This document shows positions 5,900 to 60,411 of a stretch of 64,000 nucleotides of DNA, piece after piece. The notes under the pieces were generated by a model. That model saw nothing but the letters and a program-made list of their open reading frames with translations, was not told the origin of the DNA and made no database searches. Position numbers and translations under genes: made by a program. Location of the stretch: NCBI GenBank assembly GCA_021234155.1, contig JAJEKV010000003.1, positions 29,061,166 to 29,125,165 of the forward strand. Direction: 5' to 3'. The DNA comes from Isoetes taiwanensis (lineage: Eukaryota; Streptophyta; Lycopodiopsida; Isoetales; Isoetaceae). Every line of letters starts with the position of its first letter. Positions within the stretch are counted from its first letter, which is position 1.

Positions 5900-6294
5900 A
5901 TGAAGCATTCACGGGCCATGATGAAGAACCCGAGGTCTCGGCACAAAGAGACGCCGGTTGAAGAACCCCTCTTCCCCCGGCCATCGATTTCTTGCCCAAT
6001 TCTCCTCTCGATTCCCGATTCAGGGATGATGCTGATTTTGAAGAGGAGGGAGTTGAGCTCCTCCCGATTCCTCCGATTCTGAAGAGGAGGAAGAGGAGGA
6101 AGAGGAGGAGTTGGAGGAAGAGGAGGAGATGTCCTCCCAAGAGCATGAAACTCGCCTGCCTCGTGGTTGGCTTGACTCTCAAACAGAATGAAATCTCTCA
6201 AGAAGAGGAGGAGGAGGAAGAGGAGGAGGAGGGGAGGAAGAGGATGAGGAGGAAGGTCGAGAATTCACCCGCTTTTAGAATGGCCGAGAGATGA
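5900..6294 (+). pseudogene. Small acidic (Glu-rich) ORF, copy A
   Basis: After the TATA box an ATG opens a frame beginning MKHSRAMMKNPRSR. The coding theme is clearer in copy B: DDADFEEEELSSSS, then a long Glu run from a GAGGAA repeat, then EMSSQEHE and a stop after SWLA. In copy A the frame switches inside the GAGGAA tract, so the Glu-rich stretch reads partly as Lys/Arg. No known domain is visible. It could be a real small acidic protein or just an expanded purine repeat. Confidence 0.35.
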
Positions 6295-8230
6295 GCCAGT
6301 TTGCATGTCCTGCTTTTATTTTTTTTTCACCTTTCTTTCTTTTCTAACACCTTTCTTTCTTCTTTGTTCCGACGGGAAGATCAATGATGCATCCCTGCAG
6401 CATCTTGTAAAGCCTTCGGCATTTTGTAAAGCCATTCTTGGCATCCAGACATATCAATTTTGAATGAAATCAAATAGTTTTCTTCACAAACTTTTTCTTC
6501 AAAATGCTTTTCTTCAAAACAGCTTTTTCAGACATAAAAATATTTTGAATGAAATCAAACTGCTTTTCCAAGCATTTTGTCTCCAAAGTGTTTTCTCCAA
6601 AATTTTGTCTCTCTCGCATTTGTGTCAACAAAGTCTCGAACACTATAAATCAACCAATCACGCAATAAGATATAGGAAATTTTCCTATAATGACCTAAAA
6701 ACAATTCCCCAACTCAACAAGTCATTTTTTAGCCTTGATAATTTTGCCTTTAAAATTATTTTTAATTTAGCCTATATAAAATTTCGAAATTCTTTTTTTT
6801 CTAATGCAATGAATGGAATAAAATGTCATGGAGAATTTATTGCATGAAATGCAATATTCTCCATATATACCATATACATGTCATGTCCAAGGAAGACCAG
6901 TACGCCAGCGCAAAGCAATTCAAGCAATCAATTATTCACGCTTAACTTATTTTCTAATTGTGCCTATATAAATCCATTTTACTTCCTCAAAGTTCCTACA
7001 TTTTCTTCCTTCCTTCATAATGATTTGGTTTGCTATGTCATTGGTTTTGATCCGCCCTCCCGAAATCTTGGTGAGCAGATTTATATTCATCAATGTTAGA
7101 TGTTTGGTTTCGTAATTCCTAACTTACTAAAAGACTCGCTTTTGTTCTCAGAAAGCATCTCGTAGCGCAGGACATCTGAGACTCGCATTAAAACCAAAAA
7201 GCAGGACTAAGGTCTCATAATCGAAAAGCCTCTAATTAAAAACCACAAGCATCTATCCTCCTTCCAAACCTTCTAACTCAAGGTTAGTTTTCATTTAGTT
7301 TTAAGTATCATCTCAATGGCGTGTTTAATCCAAGAAGACAAGCTTTTGCATTTGCTCGAGGCGAGGAAGCGATGATGTTTATGAAAACCGTAATAGTTTT
7401 TTATAAACTTCATCCGCTTTTTTTTGTTTCGAAAATTCTTGAGTTTCTTCCCAATTAATCATGCTATTGCATGCAAGTTTCTATTATGAATGTGTAGTAG
7501 AAAGCATTAGAAAAATCAAAGATAATATTTGAAACACGCTTAAGCGTGTTTTAGGGTAATCTTAGTTTTTCAACATGAATACACGCCGGCGTGCATTCAG
7601 CAGGAGGGAGAAAAAAAAAAAAACATGTGATAGATAAGTAAATAGATAAAGGCCAGCAATTATTTACACCGGGTTATCGAATGCACGCCGAGCGCAGTAT
7701 AGTTTTTCCTATATAGCGCTTTTTACACGCCGAAATGCAAAACAATTGTATCCCTACTTTCAACTTTACGCTTAAACACGGGCGGTTCTTAGTTTCTAAG
7801 TTTATAAATAAAGAAATATAATACTGTGCTGAATACCGATAATTCACCACTTCCCATTGATAGATGCCGTTACATTAATCACCCTGGTGACCTAAGATGG
7901 GATTGGAATTACATTTGGGCCGAAGAATCACGTTCTCGGCCCTAATCTCCACCGCTGGAACTGTACCGAAAGCACCGGGCTCTGCTCTGAGCACCGCCTT
8001 GCAACCCCTGGAGTACTTGGATCAAGTAATGATGATGCGCGAGCGCCAGTGGCAATGATAGATCTCGGCTCTGGGCCCTTGTAATCGCATCTTAGGTTTC
8101 CGCCTTATCTTTAATCACTTCGAGAATGCAAAGATACGCATTGATCGAGAGTAATCTTCATCCGCCACCGGTGATTCAAAATGAGTGAGCCGCGCTTAGT
8201 GGTTAGCCTTATGCCCGGATGCCTCAACAT
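6295..8230. other. AT-rich tail of copy A, no gene recognised
   Basis: This stretch has CTTTCTTTCTT runs near 6330, weak repeats of AAATCAAA..TTTTCTTC at 6465-6600, and a TATA-like site at 6773. At 6920-6972 a second promoter-like module (AATTATTCACGCTTAACTTATTTT then TATATAAAT, the first part 24 bases and given here in two halves: AATTATTCACGC, TTAACTTATTTT) resembles the one at 5805-5850. Between 7530 and 7830 there are short palindromes of the CACGC..GCGTG type. I see no credible coding sequence. Confidence 0.5.
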
Positions 8231-47511: not shown

Positions 47512-48324
47512 TAAGATCTAGGGTTTATCCCTCGTGCCAATGTGCATGCTGACAGAGGTCGTCCACCTAACATCGAATCCTTGTTGATCACAAGAACCCG
47601 ACGGTGCAGAATGGACGTGTCATTCATCCCCTCGCCCTCGGGATCGACCTAGCAGTGGAAGCGTATAAGCACATAGCATCAAACACACATAGTTCCACCT
47701 CACCATAATATAGCATCTATAACAATAACATTAGTAATATCAACATAAGGGAGATCCTACCCAGGGCTCAGACTCAAGTGGATCGACTGACAGCTTGGAT
47801 CTCCAGAAGTCAAAGCAGACAGAGTTCATAACAATGGACTTGGCTAGCATAGAACATGGTCATTGGGTAGTCCACTCCATCTGCCCCTCCTGTGCATACT
47901 TTGCAGAATAGGCTCATAAGTCTTGGGACTTGACTGTAGCCTGCAGAGGCACGCATGCCTATTATAGGTGGCTAGCGAGCCACTGCTCGTCTATGACCTG
48001 AACCCCATTGAAGGTGACGCATTACCCAAGAGGTGTTGAGCCCATGCCTTGCCCACACCCGGTGGCAAACCATCAAGCCTAACCTGCTCAGTTCCTCGGT
48101 AGGCTTTACATACCAAAGGGATCAATCTGTAATGGGACATGCCCTCCTTTTATGTCGGTCTAGCCCCACCACCCACAACCAGGCAGGTTCGATTGCACGG
48201 GCTGCATTTATTTGGGAATTATGGAGGTTAACTAGGTGCATAATCTACTAAGGCCTTCAGGGTCTCTACCCCCTTCCCCAAGACATAGGATTTCATAGAA
48301 ATCAACTATAATCATCCATAGAAC
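47512..48324 (-). mobile_element. Gypsy-family LTR (copy 2), 3' part
   Basis: Reverse-complemented, this matches LTR 61700-62400. Shared landmarks are TTGGGGAAGGGGGTAGAGAC, TATTCTGCAAAGTATGCACA, GGAGGGGCAGATGGAGTGGA and TTGAGTCTGAGCCCTGGGTA. It is cut on the left by the Helitron end and interrupted on the right by the hAT element; its other part continues at 60412. Frames within it, such as 48033-48251, are incidental. Confidence 0.8.
48317..48324. repeat. hAT target-site duplication, left
   Basis: catagaac, identical to 60404-60411. An exact 8-bp direct repeat is the hAT signature. Confidence 0.95.
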
Positions 48325-48447
48325 CAGTGATAGGTTCAATACTGTATACGTTTTATACGTAATACATATTTTTCGTTTGATACGACACAAATTTGACGTT
48401 TAATACGTCAAAAATACGTCTAAAAAAATTTTCGGCGTCGGAAAAAT

Positions 48448-48624
48448 TTCGCGTAAGCGAAAACAACTGTTTCCTTAAACGAAGTTTCTTTCGCGTAAGC
48501 GAAACAGTTGTTTTCGCTTACGCGAACCAAAAAAAGTTTCGCGCAAGCGAAATCAACTGTTTCGCTTACGCGAAAATATCTTCGCGTAAGCGAAAGAGTT
48601 GTTTTCGCTTACGCTTACGCGAAA
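48448..48624. repeat. Subterminal motif array, left end of hAT
   Basis: Seven copies of TTCGCGTAAGCGAA or a close variant, in both orientations, within 177 bases. The motif is an imperfect palindrome: TTCGC, a GTAA spacer, GCGAA. hAT transposases bind short repeated subterminal motifs, so these are likely binding sites. Confidence 0.9.
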
Positions 48625-48639
48625 GAAACTTTGCAAAGC

Positions 48640-49083
48640 ATATTGGGGCGTTTTGCAAAGGGAAAAAAACTTTTTGTGCCACTGTTTGGTCTATTTTGTG
48701 CAGATGAAATATTATATATAAGAAAAATGTGTTTAGCTCTAGAATTCGCCTCGAACGTTGACTACCAGGTCGAGTCCACATACTCCTTGGGAAACGGTCA
48801 GCCTTTGAGGTGTGGGTTTTTGCGTTTGGGGCCTGACGCCGGAATTGTGAAGTGAGATTCCTCCTTCACAGAGTTTTCCGACCTTGGGTTCCTACCCTGT
48901 TCCTTAGAGACCTATAGGTTCCTGTCCTTCACTCCTTACGTTCGAACGGGACGTCGATATAACCTATGCGTAGTGAGCTTGCTCCTTTGCGTATATAGAT
49001 GTCAGCCTTTGGTTCGGACGATTAAGGAGTCTTTACCCTTTAGCATACCAGAGCAGAGACAGTAATTTTAGATAGCAGCAGGG
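48640..49083 (+). promoter_or_regulatory. Likely transposase promoter/leader
   Basis: ATTATATATAAG at about 48709-48720 is a TATA-like site about 365 bases before the transposase ATG at 49084. Between them is ordinary sequence with no competing long frame. No start site is known. Confidence 0.4.
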
Positions 49084-51551
49084 ATGGCAGCTGGTCATGC
49101 ATCCACATCAGGCGCCGCTGGCGGCCATGCATCTACATCCGGCGCCGCCGGCGGTCATGCATCATCATCTAGGGGTGCGCGGCCATCGCGCGGTCATGGC
49201 AGGGCCACGGGGGTTGGAACAGCACGTGGAAGAATTATATGTCGAAATACTGGTGGTCGAAAGAGAGGTCCTGAGTGGGGATTTGTGAAGGAATTTGGTC
49301 AGAATGAGTGGCAATGCGTATTTTGTGGGTACACGTCAATAAATGGATCCGCGACAAGAATACAAGCTCATCTTTTACGGGATCCTAAAATTGGGGTGCA
49401 AACATGTACGGCATCTGCTGACATACGACAAGATGCACTTGAAGTGTTGGGTCGAAAAAAGAATAGCAGCAGAAGAACACAGCCAAGGGATAGCCAAGGA
49501 CCTTCACCATGCCAAGAAGAAGAGATCAATTACACCACCCCTCCTGCAGCGCCAATGTACCAACCAGAGGGTGGACTAGGGTCAATAGGAGGGTTAAGTA
49601 CGGGCGAAAAAAGAATGGTAGAGACAATTGGGATAGTGGAAAGACAGACTAAGCAACAGAGGGTTGACCAGTGCTTAACATCAGAGCAACTGAAGAAGAC
49701 GCAATTGAAGGTTGTAGAGGCATTTTTATATGCCGGGTTGTCTCCACATGTTTTGGAGCACAAAGCAATGAAAGAAGCCTTCCAGGAAGTTGCCAAAGCA
49801 GGGCCGGCTTTTAGATTGCCTTCATACAAACATGCCAATAACAAAATGGTGGATGAAATACACGGGAAAATGGTCGAGAGGGTGGAAATGAAGTTAAGTC
49901 GTGTTACTGAAGCCAGGCCAGCCTCACTAGTGACTGATGGTTGGAGCAATGTAAACAAGGACCATCTTATAAATTTCATGATCGTGTATCCAGGGGGCGA
50001 AGTATTCTTGAAAATCGTAGAAACCAAAACGGACCAAGTCACAGGAGATTGGATTTTTCAAAAAACAAAGGCTGTGATAGAGAGTTTTGGGCCGAAGAGA
50101 ATATTTCAGGTCGTAATGGACAACGCGTCTAATTGTAAATTAGCGGGTGAATTGTTGGAGTCTGAATTTCCAAGATTGCACGCGACCAGCTGCCAATGCC
50201 ATTGCCTGAACTTATTGCTGAAGGACTGGTTTTCACAGCACACTTGGTTCAAAGATCCCATTCAAAAGGCCCGTCGTCTCGTGAAATTCATCACAAAGAA
50301 GCCGACAATTTATGCCATATACAAGTCATTGTGTCAGAAGGCCCTAGCACTCATGAATCCTGGGCAGACTCGGTTTGGTTCCAATTACATTTGTCTTGAA
50401 AGAGTGCTTAGGTGTCGCGACTCGATTATCTCGACCTTCAACCATACAGAGTTCTTTGAATGGGAGAGGAGGTAGAAGGGAAAAAATGCTTCAAAACACC
50501 GGCAGCAAGCTGCCACCCTTCGAGAAATGCTTGGGCGGGAGACATTTTGGAGAGGCGTAAAGAATGTTGTCAAGTGCATGCCATCAAAACCCTTGATTCT
50601 TCGAAGGCAAGCACTGGAAAGGTCTGGAGGTGCTGGCACTCCATTCAATCCTTTCTACAGCGTGATGGCCCCAATGCACCCTTTGACAATGCTAAGCGCG
50701 CAGCACTGCTTAGAGACTTTAATGAACGATGGAAGAAGTCCTACAATGATCTTCATGGCGCCGCACATGCTTTAGACCCACACAACCACGATATGGACCA
50801 GCATATAGATAAAGAAGTGATGGGTTCATTGAAGAAGGTTGCAAAAATGTTTTACCCCAACAGCTCGGACTACAAAATTTTCATTGCCGAGTTAACTGAA
50901 TACCAGAACTTGAGTGGAAGGTGGGCAGATGAAGAGCTTCATGATGCACTGGAGAGTCACAAGAAGGAACCAAATATGGAATCTTATGCATGGTGGCAAG
51001 CCCATGGACATGTTACTGATACGTTACATGCCCTTGCAATGACTATCCTCTCCTTGGTATCCTCCAATAGTGCAAGTGACAGGAACTGGAGTGCTTATAA
51101 GTACATACATAGTGTGACACGAAATCGCCTCTTGCATAAGAAGGCTGACAAACTTGTATATAACTTCTCAAATTGGCGGCTCTTGAATCGCAACAGTGGT
51201 GCAGCCGTAGTTGATAAGCTACAGTTTCCTTTTATGGATGCAGATTCTGAAGTGGAAGAGGACAACTTCGAAGACAGTGAGGACGAGCTGCTTGCTGTAA
51301 ATGCCGCTAACCATGTTGATGAGGACATTCAACGTACCCATTTTGTCGATGCCGAAGATGATTTAGACAAGAACATGTTCTCGGATGACTCAGACGACAG
51401 CGAAGATACAGAAGAGGAGTCTGATACAGAAAGGCCAGGTCTAAATAATACAGGAGATCTGCTTGAGGACTTAATAGTACGTGAGCCAGCGGACTCTCCA
51501 ATGCCAATGTCCCAGACAAATAGTCAACGTGTCAGAAGAAATACAACTTGA
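49084..51551 (+). pseudogene. hAT transposase (BED, DUF659, hAT dimerisation), broken
   Basis: It would cut and paste the element in the nucleus. The N-terminus has three GHASTSGAAG-like repeats (residues 4-27). A BED zinc finger follows (C78, C81, H96, C108). The DUF659 catalytic part has SLVTDGW (D285), QVVMDNASN (D346) and a CQCHCLN motif at 370-376. A TAG stop at 50473-50475 interrupts after FFEWERR. The same frame resumes (HRQQAATLREMLGRETFW) and then slips to another frame before 50690. The C-terminal part ends with the hAT dimerisation block: WWQAHGH, SSNSASDRNWSAYKYIHSVT, RNRLLHKKADKLVYN. A long acidic tail (DSEVEEDNFEDSEDE) follows. One stop and one frameshift make it inactive as read; an intron around 50470-50690 is less likely. 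Confidence 0.9.
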
Positions 51552-52287
51552 GGACGTTGCAGTAAGGGAAAGGGCCAAAGGAGGTTGAACCTAGGCCAGC
51601 ATGCAGAAGAGGACGGAAGCCCAGATGATGAAACTGATGAAGACGGTGATGTCTAGACGGTAACCTCCTCTAGAACGAACGATTTCTGCTCCGACCCCCA
51701 TTTTGCGCGTCTTTGTGTAATATAACCTAGCAAAGTATCTAAGATACATTGACACAGAGACACGCAGAAGAGAGTCAGAGCAAAGCTCGCTCCTTCTAAA
51801 GGAGGTAACAAGAATTTCGAGAAGTCTATATTGTTTGCCATGGAGAATATAAAGCCTGGTGACCTGACAACCATTCAAGAGGGTCGCGCTCTTGGCTTAC
51901 TCCCTTTTCGAGTTTCTTGCTTGCTAATTCAGGCTTACTCTCTTTTCGAGTTTCCTGCTTGACGTATCTAATTCGCCACCTAGAGTGAGCGATGTCATCC
52001 CAGGGGGCAAATTAGATACATCAAACAGAAAACGAAAGAGACTAAGTCAAACAGGACAAACAAGCGACTAAGCCTGACATGAGGTCCAGATGTCAAATAG
52101 GTTGCGTGTGCAGATGTTTTGACTCACTCACATACTTACTTTACTTAACTATAATACAAACAACTCAATGTGGCAACCCAACCCCCAAAATTTTATTACG
52201 ACAAAGAAATCCTCGTCAACGAACGTTGGTTCATTCATGTGCATCTGAGATCTTAGGGAAAAATATCAAAAAATAAATGTAGACCGC
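51552..52287. other. Intergenic between convergent hAT genes
   Basis: It holds two direct copies of CTTACTC(C/T)CTTTTCGAGTTTC (given with one ambiguity; about 51897 and 51933), and an inverted pair GTATCTAATT / AATTAGATAC around 51963-52018. Nothing coding is seen. It probably carries the 3' ends of the transposase and RING transcripts. Confidence 0.5.
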
Positions 52288-53824
52288 TCATGGGTTTAAG
52301 TATTCGTCTGCATCCAAGTTCACACCTTCGTCACCTGCTGGCCCAGGAGGCGGCGGTAATTGATTAATGTCTGGTACCTCTTCACCTTCACACGGTTCTT
52401 CTACCCCCCTCCAAAGGTCCATTTCACGTTGGGATTGGAACGCATGAGCCATTCCATCCCTCCTGCGAGCAACCAGAGGTGGCAAGGGAGGCATGCGTGA
52501 TTGCAAGTTGAGCATTGCATACTGGTGCTCTGGTATAATATATCCATCATCTGCTGGACAGAACCTACTGCCCATCATCCAATCCAACAAGCACCTCAAA
52601 TGCAGACGATGTCCACACCCTAAGGCATACCAACCAACTTGGGTTAGATTGTCCGCACACACCTGACAATATCTAAAGTCCCCGTTCTTTATATCGTCCC
52701 ACTGACTTTCATATAGGTATTCAGGAGGGAGGTATGCAATACCCTGCTCCTTGGAGACTCTAAGGGAATCATAATCTAAGACTCTTGATATTGTGCGCAT
52801 GTGCTCATTGTCTACTCTCAACACCGCATTTTCCCTACCCAAAGCTGCAAGTTGATTCTTCGTGTCTAATAATTGTGCAGCCATCTTGTCATGAGCATTT
52901 GCACGATCTTTTAAGCGCAAGTTTTCCTCTGACAGAGTCAGGTTTTGACTTCTTTCATTCTCTAACTGAGCCTTCAGTTCTACCTCATCATCCCATGCAC
53001 TTTGCTTTTGCAACCCCCGCCACATCTAAAAGTTTTATGGCATCTTGAAGCAGATAGGTTATAGTCACGGGCTTATCACCAAGAGCGCTTTCAGAATCGT
53101 CCATGAGCTTCACTCTCTTTGTTGCTACCACTTCTTGCTTCCTTGTTTCCACTTTCTCTTGGCATAATTTATGGGCTCCCCTCTCACAATCTCATAGTAC
53201 ACTTGCTTGGCAAACGTCTTCTTGAATTATTGGTTTTATCATTGTTCCTTTCACTTGCACCCACCTCTCCAAAGCTTTAGCTCGGACTTCAGGGATCTTG
53301 CAGTCATATGCCTTATACTTACCTGCTCTCCTGCTTGGCCAGTCGACGTCAAACTGTTTGGCGTCTAAATTGGCCTCGATATCCTCAAAATCTGCTCCAT
53401 GTGGGCAACAACCTGGGCCCATGTCACATGCAACTCCATGCACCTCTGTAATTGTGACACCCTCTTTCTTGGCCACTTCTGCCATTGCCCTCAACCTTAA
53501 CAACTCTTTTGCACGCGCTTCATTCATTCTAGCATGTTCCTCTGCTTTTTGTATCTGTTGTGCCCTAACCTCTGACAATGTAGGTAGAGAAGGGAATTCA
53601 AATCCATCTGGGTCTGGAGTTCTCAAAGTGTCCGACATAGAGAAGTCTCCTCCATGCGCGGTTTCATCAGCCCCTTCTCTCATGTGCTGATGAGAAGAAC
53701 TCGGTTGCCGATGAGACGAACTAGGTCGTTGAGACATTCTTAAGTGTTTAGCACTAGGTAGTTGTGAGTTCGTTTTCTTGCGGATAGGCTTTACATTAAC
53801 TGCGCGAAATAAAAAACAACTCAA
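52288..53824 (-). pseudogene. Coiled-coil/RING-like cargo gene, frame-broken
   Basis: The C-terminal 245 codons (53025 to 52288) begin with a Glu/Leu-rich coiled coil (about residues 15-80: ELKAQLENERSQNLTLSEEN). A RING-like finger follows: C120, C123, C137, H139, H142, C145, C156, with Asp159 where the last Cys should be. A Pro-rich acidic tail ends it. The N-terminal 210 codons (53824 to 53192) contain a His/Ser-rich start, a helical AEEHARMNEARAKELLRLRA stretch and a CDMGPGCCPH motif. Between them, KQVYYEIVRGEPINYAKRKW and DKPVTITYLLQDAIKLLDVA lie in other frames, so I read one gene with several slips. RING proteins are usually E3 ubiquitin ligases; that role here is inference. An acceptor-like TTTCGCGCAG near 53800 hints at an upstream intron. 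Confidence 0.6.
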
Positions 53825-53961
53825 TATGACTTATAAATTACAAAAAAAAAAACAAGTGCAACAATGATAAATACATAAAGATGTTTTATTGAATGTATTT
53901 AAAGCAATTGTTCAATGATTATTTTTTTTGGTTGCATACAAGAGAACTCATAAATGGCACG
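53825..53961. other. Short spacer between RING-like and kinase-like genes
   Basis: AT-rich with a 13-A run at about 53841-53853 and a T run at 53924. The CACGCTAAGCGTGA palindrome at 53958 overlaps the last codons of the kinase gene. Confidence 0.5.
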
Positions 53962-55652
53962 CTAAGCGTGACTTGGTCCAGCTTGGTCAGCATCGTCTGC
54001 CCCTAACCCAACTTGAGGAATCCAATCTGATTCCGTTTGGGGTCTTGTGCAATGTGTTGGAGAGCAATTCCAGGTGCTCCGCATGGTGTTCAGTAGCTGG
54101 TTCAGATCAAACTTGCGTGCCTTATCTCTTATTGGGGATTCGACACAGTGCTTCAAATAATCGCACATGTTTCGAAACCTCTGGCTTTGTTCATTGGTAC
54201 CCATACTCTCCAAGAAAGAGTACTTGCGTGCAAAATCAGCAAGGTAATAGATAAAGTAGGCTGCCCCTAAGAGATCGAAGTCTACCCTTGCAGGCACCGT
54301 CTTAGTTCCATCTCTTTTTGGACCCCAATACAAATCATCATGCATGTATGGATAGGCAAGCCTTTCATTCTCAATGGCCTTTTTGGCAGCAGCATCCATG
54401 CCTTTGTATGCCCACTGCTTCACTTCCACTGGCTCGCCTATTAGGCGTTCTTCTCCCCAGTCACATATACCAATATAAACAGCCTGGGGCTCCGTGCATC
54501 CTCTCTCTTTCCCAAATTCAAAATGAAGCAAGACATTGCCCGGGTGTAAGTCCATGTGTAGATGGTGCTCTTTATGAAGCTTAAACAAGCCGCTTAAAAA
54601 CGACATAGTTAGATCACCCACTCTTTGAGCAACATATAACTCCTGCTTTCTTCGTTGCTCAAGCTTATGGACGTCAACCTCATTGTGGGCTTACACCCTA
54701 ATCTCTTAAATGCATGCACGGCAAACTCATTATCTCCATGATGCACAAAAGTGATGCACAAGAACCCCCATTCCAAAGGGGAAATATCAACCCCCGTTCT
54801 TTCCAACCCGGTTAATGCGACCAATGCAAATATGATAGAGCCATGTCTAACCTGCATTTGTGATTCCCTCATGTTTTTCATCATGGCCTTTACTATCACA
54901 TCAGGTCTGGCCGTACCTAACCGCACATCCTCATTCTGAAATTTAACACAATAGGGTTCGTCTTTAAGAAAACTAGAACCCAAGATATTGCATTTGAACA
55001 TCGTTCCATATGTTCCTGAACCAATTCTGGTCCTGTTCATTATTTGAGAGGAATCCACCATTGCAAACCATATAGTCTTGGCATCTGCCCTTTTTCTTGC
55101 TTCCCACTCTTTATCAGTCTCACCAGGATGCTTGGCTCTAATAGTCTGTGCCAACACTTTCTTAACTAGGTGAGGGGGTTGATGGGTTTCTTTTCTAGGC
55201 TTTCGATTCGTCCAAGTTGTGTTCCATTCCACAGCTTTATCTTTTAAAGACTCTCTCAAGCGGGGACTAGTTAGATTTGCCACTGCATGAATCATATTTC
55301 CAGTTGCACGGGATACATTGCCATCTATCCAAGCATACCTTTTAGAATCAATCTTTTCAGGTTCTACGTCTATCATTCGAGGCCCAAAAGCTCTCTCAGC
55401 ATCTCCCATGAGACTTGAGTGGAAGTCTAGCCATCCTTCATCTGTTGTAGTAATCAACTCTAACTCAGATGGGGTGGCAGCACATATTCGCTCACAGAGC
55501 CAATTCATTAAAGCGGGTCTTAAGGAGGACCATGGCTGTTGGGGTCTTGATCTCTTTCTCTGCATCTTAGTAGAGGACTCAACCTCTGGGTTCATGTGAG
55601 GCTCTGCTTCTACCCTAGGTCCTTCTTTACACTACTACAAAAATAGGTAGAA

Positions 55653-55801
55653 ATGGCACAAAAGTGACATTTATCCTCCGCCTTTTTACCGGGCATAAAC
55701 GTCACTTTTGTGCCATTTATGACGTTTGTGCTCCCCAAATGGCACAAAAGTGACGTTTATGCCCGGTAAAAAGCGGAGGATAAATGTCACTTTTGTGCCA
55801 T
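55653..55801. repeat. Long hairpin inside the MITE
   Basis: Arms 55653-55718 and 55737-55801 are reverse complements over about 65 bases with one 1-base indel; the loop is about 18 bases. GGCACAAAAGTGAC occurs four times in alternating orientation. With the terminal repeats the stem would reach nearly 90 bp. Confidence 0.95.
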
Positions 55802-58800
55802 CTTATATTATAATGTTATTGTGTAAGTGTTGGACCCAGCCCTAATTTGGACGGCTGAGATCCATCGACATTGCACGGCCAAGATTTCTTCTCTTCTCAT
55901 CCTTTTTTTTTTTTAGGTTTCAACGGTGTAGAGCTTTGGACGGTGCAGAGCTCGGGACGTTTTGCCCCTCCTGAAGCGTCTTGCCACAGCCTGAGCTCTC
56001 CAAGCGCAGAAGAGACTGCCGGAACTTGAAACAAATTTTGATGCAAAAGACTTGAAACAAATTTTGATGCAAAGGGAAAACAATGGCTGAAGCTTTAGCT
56101 TTGGCAATGGGGGCATAAGACCCAGGGATTGGTATTGTTTTGTCGTGTTTAATAAGAACAGCTCTCGCTCCTGGCATCTTGAGGTTCTTGAGGTTCTGGA
56201 CTTCTGCCGCTTTCCCTGTAGAATCTGTATCTCCAGCTATGGCGATGGGTTCGAATATTGATGGACTATGGCGATGGCAATTTGCACGGGATGGCTCTTC
56301 TTCTTCCTGACGATCACGGGTAAGATTTGTCTTTAGTTGTTGCTTTTCGTTTTGCATTGTTTCTACAAGCGAACAGGCACCAAGAGCTGAAGAACGAGCT
56401 GAGCTGAAGGCGGGTCATGGGTTTCCCTATTCTCTGCACCTTTACGTTCTTCTATCTTCTCGGCATGCTTCTACAAATAAGGTAGGGTATTCTTGCATCA
56501 AACACGGCCGAGTAGCAGGTCTTAGAGGTAATATGATACTGAGGGAAGTAGTTGGAAAACCAAATGGGATCCAAATGCCGAGCTTTTAGAACTGGTTTTT
56601 CTAGCAAGCAAGAAGGCCGTCTTACATCTTTGACTTGAGTAGTATTACGAAAACCTGCAGCTATGGCTTTTGCAACCGAAGTTTTGTCGCCTCCTGCAGA
56701 TGCATCGTAACACGTGCATTTGCAATAGGGTTCCTTCGGCATCGCCTATCCGTTGTTGTTTTTTTTCACAAAGGGCCACTGAACCGGAGTGATTCGGGAG
56801 GATGTTTGAATAAAACAATGTCTCGGCCAAAACCTTAGCCAAGTCCGGCTATGGCTATGGCTTTTGCAACCGAGTTTTTGTGCAATGAGTTTTGTCCGCC
56901 TCCCGGAGAGATGCATCGTAACACGTGTGTAATCTTGCCTAACGTCCAAGATAAATGCATAATCCATATCGGACTTGGAGATCCTATCTACGCATATAAC
57001 TCAAAAGTCCTCTTTTAAGAAACAACGCACCACATTTGCAAGACCAATGATGGATTTATCCTTTTGAGTCATCCTTCCTTTACATGGATGTTAGTGTTTG
57101 GTCCATCTTACATATCAACCAATAAGTTTCATTCTCGCATTTCAAAATTCCTTTTGTCTTTTCTAACAGGGCATTGTTGATGCGGGTTTGCCATCACATT
57201 CTAAAGGTTTACAAGTCACTACAAAATTTTCTTGGTAAACATTCACAAGGTGTTGCCTTCTTTGGAACTTATTATAGGTACATCTTATATCCTATACCAA
57301 ATCTTTTAGAGGTGTTGCCAATCTATATATTGTTAAATTTGTTCAAATAGCTAGCCCCTTCATAATGCAATTGCAATGTTTACGAGATCACGGGGTTTCG
57401 TGATAAGGTGTTATCCGCCTAGCTAGGGCAAAAAAAGGCATATTGTTTATTGTCTTGAAGGCATGAGCTACAATGGGAGGTATTGTAGCCATTGTTCATG
57501 CTAAGCAAAGTCAGATTTATTGCTCTCAAGATATTCCTTGGTTTCCATAACATGGGCTGTGCAATGCATTTTGCAACAATGCATTTGAATGGTGGGATCA
57601 ATTGGATATTTGTCTTTGCTTTTAGAGTAGGTTCTGTGTTTAGCTTCCTTCATGAGATGGTAGAGTACCTTTATAAGATGTCAAAGAATACTGGTTCATG
57701 ACTATGGCACACAACTAATCTCTGTAGGACTTTGCACCTTCAGCTATAGCCTTCAGTCAGTTTCAGCAAATAGTACCTAGCATTTGAATTGGTATCATTC
57801 TTTTGATTTGGAAAAATTATCTGCCGATATATTTAGTGATATTAAGTCACAGGACAAATCTGAAGATCTCGAATGTTAACCTTCCCCAGGCTATCATAAT
57901 TTCTTTAGAACTAATCCCTAGCTTTGCAATAAAAATGCAAAAGCTCTATTATATCATTCAAGAATTGTCAGTTCTTTAATACAGATATATTGTATGGAAG
58001 TGCTGTATTGTTGAGATGGTTCAATACAGATATATTGTAAAAGGAAGCGTTGTGTTATGATGAGATGGACCTCTTTAATACAGATATATTGCAATGGAAG
58101 TGCTGTGTTGTTGAGATGGTTCAATACAGATATATTGTAAAAGGAAGTGTTGTGTTATGATGAGATGGACCTGAGAACACGATTTAATGTTGAAATTCCA
58201 CTAACGTTCTTCTATGCCATGTCTCATAAGAACATAAGTTAATGTTGAAATTCCACTAACATTCTTCTATGCCAGCCTTAAAAAAAGAACTTAGTTTTTC
58301 ATAAATTTAACACTAGCACACATGAAATACATATATGAAGAAAATCCATTAAGCCCATCTTTCATATTTGATTTTCAAAAGACGAACACATGTTTCATTA
58401 TTTATTTGCAAACACAATTAAAATGTCAAGTATTTTTAAAGGTATCTCTAATCAAAGGAGCAAAGTACTTCTAGAGGTAGCTATAGATAAAGGTGTAGTG
58501 CATAATGAACAAAATGTCTAAGGTTACACATAATCATGCAATGCCTTCAAAAGGTTACGTGCAACGCACATTGACATTCATATACAAGCAGCAATACATC
58601 ATAGCCACCACACATCCACATTCATATACAAGCAACAAGAGAGAGCGACTTAATGAGATTTAGAACACAACATCAACAACTCATAGACATGGCCTCTTGC
58701 AATCTACAGGTTCCCAAAATGATCCAATGGCCCGGACTTGCAATCTACAGGTTCCTAAAATTATTCAATGGCTTAGAAGTTATTGTATGCAAATGCAAAG

Positions 58801-58904
58801 TTCCAATGGCCTAGAAGTTTACTGTAGGAAAATGCATAGGTTCTCAGGTTCCCAACGCTTACAGGTTCCAAATTATGCCCAGCAACGCTGGGCACCATTA
58901 CTAG
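55801..58904 (+). mobile_element. Non-autonomous Helitron, 3104 bp
   Basis: It starts TCTTATATTATAATG directly after an A (55800). It ends with the hairpin GCCCAGC-AAC-GCTGGGC (58877-58893), ACCATTA and CTAG (58901-58904) before a T. Joining 55800 to 58905 restores the MITE palindrome exactly, which proves both ends. Rep/helicase is absent. Inside are a GAAGCTTTAGCTTTGGCA block shared with 690-715, a duplicated GCTATGGCTTTTGCAACCG/ATGCATCGTAACACGTG block at 56663 and 56850, and the tandem arrays at 57974. Frames such as 57492-57701 have no motif. Confidence 0.92.
57974..58275. repeat. Tandem repeats inside the Helitron
   Basis: A 98-base unit (57974, 58072) carries TTTAATACAGATATATTG and GTTGAGATGG sub-repeats. 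It is followed by a roughly 55-base unit beginning AACA(C/T)..TTAATGTTGAAATTCC at 58176 and 58231. Variation is slight. Helitrons often hold such arrays near the 3' end. Confidence 0.9.
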
Positions 58905-58990
58905 TTTCTACCTATTTTTGTAGTAGTGTTAGGGCTCATGTGAGGCTCTACTGCTTCTAGTCTAAGCCCGTCTAACTCTTGTGGATTCAT

Positions 58991-60077
58991 AGCAGCTTTA
59001 GATAGATAGATAGATAGAAGAAACTGTGTATAGATAGCGATATGCAAACTGTAGCAAAGCAGCAACAATACCTACAAGTCTGGGGAAAAAAAAAACCCAC
59101 TTTAGTGAGTGTCACTAATGCCGAAATAGTTCATTAAGATTCTACTAGTAAACTACTAAGTTTCAAGCTTGACAGTTGTAGGCACCCTACTGAGTTTAAC
59201 AAGTTCTCTCATTCTCTTCAACAAGTTTAACTTATGATCTGACCCAGCTACTGACTCCATTAGGAAACTCCCTGGCGGCACTCAACTGAACATATTGCAT
59301 AAGACCACCTAGCAAAGTCACGAATATTTAATGAAATATACGCCACTCCCTATATTAGTGTTGGACTTTCGTCAACAACATCGTCAGAAAATAGGGTATA
59401 TCTCATTAAATATTCTCCTGACCTTCCATAAGAGTACAACACCCACCTTTTAGCACCGCGTGACCGAAGCCAACAAGCGGCAGGAGAGGGCTATACACCT
59501 AAATGGGAGGTTGACCCTAGCAATCCTCGATATCAGCAATGACACCCACCCTCGGCATGGCACAATTCAATGTGGCACGCCAGGCGAGGGTCACTGCCTC
59601 AGCCAAGGATCACTTCGAACTAAAACCTAGTCTCTCTTAAGGATCACTCCCTACCCTAACTGCTACTGTTGTCGATGAAAGGGTAGGCAACCAAATTTCT
59701 CTTTCTTATTTTTTTTATTTTTATTTTTATTTCATTAATTTTTTTCCTTTTTTTATTGTTTCTGTTCCATTGTTTTTTTTTTCTTTTTTTTTTTCATTAT
59801 TTTTTTCTCAAAAATCAGTCTGGATTCGACCATAGAACGAGACGCTCACCATCGTCACGCCCCTCAATGGAGGGGGGCAACAGGCGAGGGCCTCACTATG
59901 GAGGAACCCTAGACCTACAATAAAAAAACAACAAAAAAACTAACTAGGCTTGCCTAAAAACTAAGAAAAAATGAAAAAAACGGGAAAAGGGGCACAGGTT
60001 GTGAAGGAGGGCGCAGGTGGTTTACCTTTTTCTGCGCAAAAACAAAGAAAATGCGCCTCCGTATATATAAAGAAAAG
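58991..60077. other. hAT right interior, no gene recognised
   Basis: It holds GATA microsatellite (about 59003-59019), ordinary sequence to 59690, and a T-rich low-complexity tract at 59697-59812. Also present is a paired phrase, GGCGAGGG(T/C)C and CAGGCGAGGG, near 59583 and 59881. It probably contains the promoter of the kinase-like gene, which reads leftward from 58990. Confidence 0.45.
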
Positions 60078-60276
60078 TTCGCGTAAGCGAAAACTACTGT
60101 TTCGCTTACGCGAAACCCGCTTCGCGTAAGCGAAACTTATAAAACAGCTTACGCGAACGAAAAAAAGTTTCGCGTAAGCAAAACCTCCTATTTCGCTTAC
60201 GCGAAAAAAGTTTCGCGTAAGCGAAATTTAAGACTTCGCTTACGCGAAGTCGGGGACGAGATTCGCGTAAGCGAAA
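60078..60276. repeat. Subterminal motif array, right end of hAT
   Basis: Nine copies (one partial, one with a mismatch) of TTCGCGTAAGCGAA in alternating orientation. It mirrors the left array at 48448-48624, likewise followed by AATACGT-type motifs towards the terminus. Confidence 0.9.
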
Positions 60277-60403
60277 AATAAATACGAAATATTTCCGGCC
60301 GGCGAGTATTAAATACGAAAAATACGTATTTTTCCCAAAAATACGTATTTTTGGACTTTATACGTCTGAAAAAATAATTTCATACGTACAGAACCTATCC
60401 CTG

Positions 60404-60411
60404 CATAGAAC
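60404..60411. repeat. hAT target-site duplication, right
   Basis: catagaac, identical to 48317-48324. Confidence 0.95.

Follow-up and report, generated by a model that had tools for sequence, protein, structure and literature searches.

DNA transposons are usually seen as parasites that carry a transposase and nothing else, and plant hAT elements, usually 2-6 kb in length, tend to contain a single gene. A stretch of 64,000 nucleotides from Isoetes taiwanensis (assembly GCA_021234155.1, contig JAJEKV010000003.1, positions 29,061,166 to 29,125,165; hereafter the window) raises the question of whether a member of this superfamily can keep further genes of its own, for an earlier note on the window had proposed that positions 48325-60403 are a 12-kb hAT transposon with which a kinase-like and a RING-like gene travel. 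We conclude that the window copy is very probably a decayed member of a family of autonomous hAT DNA transposons with three genes, in which the kinase and the RING protein would serve as trans-acting accessory proteins.

By the features tested, namely an 8-bp duplication, short inverted ends and a dimerisation domain, the element is a hAT transposon, and its borders agree with the matching ends, the exact 8-bp duplication and the motif arrays at both ends that the earlier note had described:

48317-48324, no strand: left copy of the target-site duplication, 8 bp, CATAGAAC
48325-48337, + strand: left terminal inverted repeat CAGTGATAGGTTC, which matches the right end at 12 of 13 positions
48447-48623, no strand: left subterminal array of TTCGCGTAAGCGAAA in both orientations, 11 matches with both strands counted
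60078-60276, no strand: right subterminal array of TTCGCGTAAGCGAAA, 11 matches with both strands counted
60391-60403, - strand: right terminal inverted repeat GAACCTATCCCTG
60404-60411, no strand: right copy of the target-site duplication, 8 bp, CATAGAAC, identical to the left 8-mer

The interval of 12.1 kb belongs to locus C1034:29061166-29125165, which holds the whole 64-kb window. The palindromic 15-bp motif TTCGCGTAAGCGAAA, scanned for on both strands with up to two mismatches, gave 22 matches in the window, all of them in the two subterminal arrays and none elsewhere, as compared with a mean of 0.06 matches per whole window in shuffled sequence; because the motif is palindromic, some sites are counted on both strands, and the 22 matches amount to about 15 separate sites. 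These arrays are likely to be the binding sites of the transposase. Between them lie three genes and one insertion:

49084-51656, + strand: hAT transposase gene (DUF659, hAT dimerisation domain), broken into open reading frames 49072-50475 and 50460-51551 and a shifted tail
52288-53737, - strand: RING gene, here open reading frames 52288-53025 and 53192-53830
53962-58990, - strand: kinase gene, with a frameshift near 54690 (open reading frames 53962-54690 and 54609-55631) and its 5' end, at 58990, separated from the rest by the nested insertion
55630-58928, no strand: nested CACTA-like insertion of 3,299 bp with ends CACTACTACAAAAATAGGTAGAAA and TTA at 55627-55629 and 58929-58931

The transposase gene is convergent with the RING gene and, behind it, the kinase gene. 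The two further genes on the opposite strand are present as the earlier note had claimed, but both of them, and the transposase gene as well, are interrupted in the window copy. The span of 12 kb was also given correctly, but 3,299 bp of it are CACTA-like DNA, which leaves about 8.8 kb for the hAT element itself. The nested element has identical inverted ends of 24 bp and splits the kinase gene of this copy in its 5' part.

To place the window copy among its relatives, we searched the assembly from which it comes (1,658,258,908 bases in 1,110 contigs), where protein searches yielded at least 119 kinase, at least 150 RING and at least 91 transposase loci. Ten copies are flanked by exact 8-bp duplications, all different: eight of the 16 loci fetched for kinase or RING matches (C1075, C1082, C1054, C908a, C908b, C1031, C1067 and C1076), the locus C645, and the window itself. 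All three genes are present in eight of the ten, in the same order and orientation, as the earlier note's reading implies for independent insertions; C1054 retains only remnants of the RING and kinase genes, parts of both having been lost, and transposase sequence was found in all ten. The terminal inverted repeats match at 13 of 13 positions in the nine copies other than the window, and in these nine the left end is CAGGGATAGGTTC. The element measures 8.4-10.5 kb in eight of them and 6.9 kb in C645.

Two short copies without genes, of 624 bp (L006, reversed, 6163-6786) and 740 bp (L020, reversed, 777-1516), have the same ends and exact 8-bp duplications of their own; the shorter one is nested inside a duplication-flanked full copy, and both are the usual non-autonomous derivatives. 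The earlier note had held that copies with the same ends and neither kinase nor RING gene would speak against it: these two are such copies, and they lack the transposase too, but eight of the ten longer copies hold all three genes.

An exact-motif scan of the genome found 231 kinase, 271 RING and 202 transposase places, and none for each reversed control pattern. The copy numbers of the three motifs are thus similar, and those of the two cargo genes do not fit a single copy or host DNA, an outcome that the earlier note had named as refuting its claim. Up to contig C1010, the range over which the three sets are complete together, there are 89 kinase, 95 RING and 80 transposase places.

The genes are also linked genome-wide. 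Among the protein matches, whose locus numbers are lower bounds, 59 of the 119 kinase matches have a RING match within 15 kb, which lies downstream of the kinase on the same strand in 58 of the 59 pairings (the remaining one does not), and the transposase is on the opposite strand in all of its pairings, 23 with the kinase and 36 with RING; by chance, about 0.3 kinase-RING and 0.2 kinase-transposase pairs would be expected. Up to C1010, a RING motif lies within 15 kb of 47 of the 89 kinase places, 46 times in the expected layout and in 43 of these 46 at a spacing of 1,649-1,949 bp, and a transposase motif lies near 30 of the 89, in the expected layout in 28 cases. By codon type at the motifs (assigned by hand) two subfamilies, A and B, can be distinguished, and both members have the same label in every linked pair, of which 46 are kinase-RING, 28 kinase-transposase and 23 RING-transposase; none of these 97 is mixed. 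It is scarcely credible, then, that a plain hAT element merely lies beside, or has been interrupted by, another repeat that carries the kinase and RING genes. Nesting does occur here, as exemplified by the CACTA-like element in the window and by a Helitron-type protein beside the kinase of C941, but the kinase and RING genes lie inside the duplication-flanked element in eight copies with different duplications, their spacing is nearly constant in both subfamilies, and the pairing by subfamily has no exception. The Helitron-type protein (C941, L017:3146-7396, + strand) is an uninterrupted frame of 1417 amino acids with PIF1 helicase and Helitron_like_N matches, located about 0.24 kb from an uninterrupted subfamily-B kinase frame.

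The transposase noted earlier matches DUF659 (E 6e-28, 97.8 bits, cut-off 34.7) and Dimer_Tnp_hAT (E 8e-8, 32.4 bits, cut-off 21.4) in Pfam. In copy C1026 an uninterrupted transposase frame of 640 codons runs past the first break of the window copy. The motifs TDGW and MDNA, at 288 and 349 of the first transposase open reading frame, may contain catalytic residues of the DDE triad, whose E was not placed; a sequence search of the PDB gave a weak match to Hermes structures only (E 0.27 and above).

In less damaged copies the kinase gene is a single frame of about 590 amino acids, with 596-621 uninterrupted codons between stops in C908c, C13, C1075, C941 and C1081. The RING protein, of about 480 amino acids, is likewise encoded in a single frame in such copies (476-543 uninterrupted codons in C1034b, C379, C908d, C1040, C954, C1026 and C1067) and comprises an N-terminal part, a stretch that by eye resembles a coiled coil, and a C-terminal RING; the other kinase and RING frames used for comparison are shorter than these ranges. 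The broken kinase piece of the window matches Pkinase weakly (E 2e-4, 21.2 bits, below the Pfam cut-off). When one kinase and one RING protein per subfamily were taken from less damaged copies, the kinases scored above the cut-offs for Pkinase (31.7) and PK_Tyr_Ser-Thr (23.1), with 33.3 and 28.6 for C1075 and 37.3 and 43.2 for C941. A search of the PDB with the kinase sequence gave weak matches to RAF kinases (best E 0.013 and 0.003). The window RING protein and the two subfamily representatives score 24.6, 22.4 and 21.3 for zf-C3HC4 (cut-off 21) and 26.2, 23.9 and 23.8 for zf-RING_2, all below its cut-off of 27.3. All ten aligned kinases keep HMDLHPGN and ICDWGE, which correspond to the HxD...N and DxG motifs of protein kinases, as well as the lysine in YC(V/I)K; the glycine loop is altered in C1049, C13, C941 and C1081. 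The product of the RING gene is best called a RING-like protein on the strength of its sequence, and ligase activity is not claimed for it.

Have these genes been maintained, or have they only been dragged along? We estimated the ratio of nonsynonymous to synonymous substitution rates (dN/dS) pairwise by the Nei-Gojobori method, on uninterrupted frames only, from 10 kinases and 13 RING proteins. For the kinase it is 0.22-0.28 within A (6 pairs), 0.13-0.34 within B (15 pairs) and 0.10-0.16 between A and B (20 of 24 pairs computable, the rest being saturated); for the RING protein it is 0.24-0.52 within A (28 pairs), 0.24-0.58 within B (10 pairs) and 0.10-0.13 between A and B (3 of 40 pairs computable, the others being synonymously saturated). 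Every computable pair thus has dN/dS below 1, the purifying selection for which the earlier note had proposed to look. Between the subfamilies dN is about 0.24-0.32 for the kinase and 0.28-0.39 for the RING protein, and synonymous sites are near or at saturation. In decayed copies the proportions of nonsynonymous and synonymous differences (pN and pS) stand in a ratio nearer to 1, e.g. 0.07/0.09 for the kinase of C1082 and 0.27/0.32 for that of C645. Low dN/dS together with nearly saturated synonymous sites therefore indicates long constraint on both genes at the protein level while they travelled in the element. The order of the three genes shared by duplication-flanked copies and the dN/dS values below 1 together uphold the view that kinase and RING travel with the element, and we are confident that both are old resident parts of the transposon which have been under selection.

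It is very improbable, by comparison, that pieces of host genes were captured once, in the manner of Pack-TYPE elements, and have hitchhiked ever since without use to the element. Gene capture by DNA transposons is common in plants, according to the part of one source consulted (PMC13317346), and many copies of the present family have decayed and contain stops. However, synonymous sites are near or at saturation between the subfamilies at a dN of about 0.24-0.39, and both subfamilies have long intact frames; the 100 listed of the 231 kinase motif places sort by eye into two codon types, a few being intermediate, with no clearly separate host-like type; and Pack-TYPE elements are non-autonomous, whereas this family carries a transposase gene. 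A host gene behind the kinase was looked for among the same 100 places and rejected, as no host ancestor was found, in a search that would miss a diverged one. It is very improbable, too, that the host has taken up the two genes and that the purifying selection reflects their use by the host. Selection was measured here on sequence alone, and benefit to the host can be separated from benefit to the element only with population or cross-species data; but more than 200 dispersed places per gene, at a copy number like that of the transposase and linked to it by subfamily, fit selection during transposition better.

Against the reading as a three-gene family, several observations have to be weighed. 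Nine of the ten duplication-flanked copies are either the window itself or were chosen for known kinase or RING matches, hence the eight of ten with all three genes is not an unbiased rate, and eight of the 16 fetched loci show no matched pair of ends (the stretch yielded one end or none, except in C490, whose candidate ends are flanked by 8-mers that differ). C645, a duplication-flanked copy, has the kinase, no detectable RING gene, and a transposase with a diverged N-terminus. The restriction of the dN/dS analysis to uninterrupted frames favours young copies. The RING domain has seven Cys/His ligand positions (by eye) and lacks the final cysteine after CP, at the usual place of the eighth zinc ligand; an aspartate lies nearby. 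Only 42 of the 91 transposase protein matches have a RING or kinase match within 20 kb; of the 80 transposase-motif places, for which cargo was counted from motifs and protein matches among those listed, 42 lack correctly laid-out cargo up to a distance of 15 kb, and 40 still lack it up to 25 kb. Seven further loci were read, five chosen by a match to the ends and two by a transposase match without listed cargo. Cargo is present at two of the five, C645 and C1046; C930 has the transposase only, and at C1078 and C23 none of the three genes was found within 10 kb; no cargo was found in about 7 kb beyond the transposase at C379 and C930. On the other side, C1079, chosen as a transposase without listed cargo, does carry the RING and kinase genes. 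Some of the cargo-less transposase places can be put down to decay, truncation or nested insertions, and others may be copies of the family that never had cargo.

Two related hAT transposases (C919:8305443 and C974:21433664, 31-74% identical by segment) have no kinase or RING match in about 9 kb each. Opposite the one in C919 lies a frame of 340 amino acids (L047:3080-4099, + strand) without a Pfam match even at E 10; it was considered as a different cargo but proved to be a repeat protein that occurs often in the genome (131 matches; 119 of 3830 candidates scored), and it may be either a nested repeat or cargo that belongs to a different hAT family. In C988 (L046:1745-2092, + strand) we observed a degraded relative of the coiled-coil and RING part, interrupted by stops and 31-34% alike over 119-133 residues; no kinase match was found in the 4 kb read around it, and it is a possible third, older lineage.

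The stretch between the transposase and the two cargo genes contains a feature that in several copies differs less between the subfamilies than the coding DNA does:

51660-51923, + strand: non-coding hairpin unit of 264 bp, a long imperfect hairpin directly behind the transposase stop

Its predicted RNA fold has an energy of -93.9 kcal/mol (z -7.7). Most elements compared have one or two near-full units of this spacer, with fragments beside them, and further units were seen in L001, L003, L005, L009, L015, L020, L042 and L044. Between the window and C1067 the DNA is 96% identical in the spacer unit, 78% in the transposase, 70% in the kinase and 66% in the RING gene. The eight units examined from B-type copies are 78-97% alike to A-type (C1067 96%, C1049 97%, the others 78-89%), and the best 40 genome matches to the unit include B-type places at up to 99%; 34 of these 40 adjoin a match to the family, and one more falls within the C1046 locus. 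When 24 units are aligned, 98.3% of cells pair, compared with 31-56% after sliding the alignment; both sides have changed in 4 of the 41 pairs, a number that shuffles reach in 187 of 500 cases, while the covariation score is reached in none of 500, these statistics ignoring the relatedness of the units. Variation by codon position does not support the unit as a coding exon, an interpretation that we rejected. Its likeness across subfamilies could reflect recombination or gene conversion between them, or constraint on RNA or DNA structure.

This leads to the possibility, to which we give some but not much credit, that the cargo half and the transposase half have different histories, because recombination close to the spacer behind the transposase gene moved the gene pair from one hAT lineage to another, which would be compatible with residence of both genes in the element. 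In five B-type copies (C490, C1076, C1067, C1032 and C1079) silent sites of the transposase have diverged less from the A-type window query (pS 0.25-0.56) than those of the kinase (0.67-0.71) and RING (0.67-0.78) genes have from A-type queries, and the spacer of some B-type copies is, as given above, nearly identical to A-type. On the other hand, the absence of mixed pairs among the 97 implies that any exchange is old, the spacers of other B-type copies are less alike, the A-type transposases of C1031, C1034b, C1026 and C1046 also reach pS 0.27-0.50 against the window, and the pattern might also be due to gene conversion or to unequal rates at silent sites. The contrast is blurred, moreover, since damage and alignment over frameshifts inflate the values.

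How does this element relate to known ones? With the hAT superfamily (Ac/Ds, Tam3, Hermes) it shares 8-bp duplications, short inverted ends, subterminal arrays and a transposase with DUF659 and hAT dimerisation domains, from which it differs by two further conserved genes and by lengths of 6.9-10.5 kb in the other duplication-flanked copies. Two points of background matter for the remaining comparisons: alpha-kinases are a different family from the kinase found here, and VANDAL elements belong to the MULE superfamily, whose target-site duplication is about 9 bp. The hAT domains and 8-bp duplications set the Isoetes element apart from the latter. The following comparisons rest on the portions of the cited papers that were consulted. 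Fungal transposons, including hAT7, carry TET/JBP genes, and IS3EU combines a transposase and a TET/JBP gene with a gene for an alpha-kinase on the opposite strand; the TET/JBP enzyme is argued to aid escape from silencing (PMC12730594). These resemble the Isoetes element in having resident accessory enzymes in conserved order and a kinase gene opposite the transposase, but their hosts are fungi, IS3EU, the case with a kinase, belongs to another superfamily, no RING gene is mentioned in the portion consulted, and hAT7 makes 7-bp duplications (PMC12730594). The Isoetes element has an 8-bp rather than the 6-bp duplication of IS3EU, and CAG ends rather than TAYGG..CCRTA (IS3EU features from PMC12730594). 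Kaonashi (KIU) non-TIR (terminal inverted repeat) MULEs are likewise plant DNA transposons with a gene for a protein-modification enzyme beside their own genes, in this case an Ulp1-type protease; they differ in superfamily and in having a SUMO-protease-type domain, with no kinase or RING mentioned in the text consulted (PMC13317346). VANDAL elements are plant DNA transposons with an accessory gene and non-coding motif arrays, whose product VANC acts against silencing and binds DNA motifs (PMC5735166); it is neither a kinase nor a RING protein. Pack-TYPE elements, including Pack-hAT (PMC8903248), also enclose gene-derived sequence between DNA transposon ends, but they are non-autonomous, whereas the Isoetes element has a transposase gene and whole conserved genes; transposase sequence in all ten duplication-flanked copies sets it apart from Pack-hAT. 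No hAT element with a kinase and RING pair was found in the open-access literature, covered mainly through titles and the beginnings of abstracts, and a word search of the Isoetes sinensis genome paper (PMC10541799) did not meet the word hAT. DNA transposons with resident accessory genes are a known kind, but the consulted text on the fungal, Kaonashi and VANDAL elements describes no kinase and RING pair.

As to mechanism, the transposase would bind the subterminal palindromes and move the element by cut-and-paste, and the kinase and the RING protein would act in trans for the element, a role proposed because TET/JBP and alpha-kinase, VANC and Ulp1-type genes provide precedents in other transposons. 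Most likely, the kinase would phosphorylate and the RING protein ubiquitinate the transposase itself or a host factor of silencing or chromatin, by which transposition or escape from silencing would improve. Host silencing is the likeliest target, though we would put this slightly short of an even chance; the transposase is a somewhat less probable target, and some other activity is unlikely. A more speculative and rather doubtful extension is that the two proteins work as a pair on one target, which the kinase would mark and the RING protein would have destroyed, thereby switching off a host silencing factor or timing the transposase, while the hairpin that follows the transposase gene might act as a control at the RNA level. 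If true, the paired kinase-RING module would make this, to our knowledge, the first known plant transposon with a protein-degradation circuit of its own.

In a group of elements commonly regarded as carrying only a transposase, two genes of signalling type have here been kept until synonymous sites came near saturation between subfamilies, and the element itself seems to need both, because both have been kept intact across two old lineages. This makes it a testable question which protein of the host or of the element needs phosphorylation or ubiquitination for cut-and-paste to succeed. For the annotation of the Isoetes genome it is a warning that more than 200 kinase-like and more than 200 RING-like places look like genes of a transposon, and not like signalling genes of the host.

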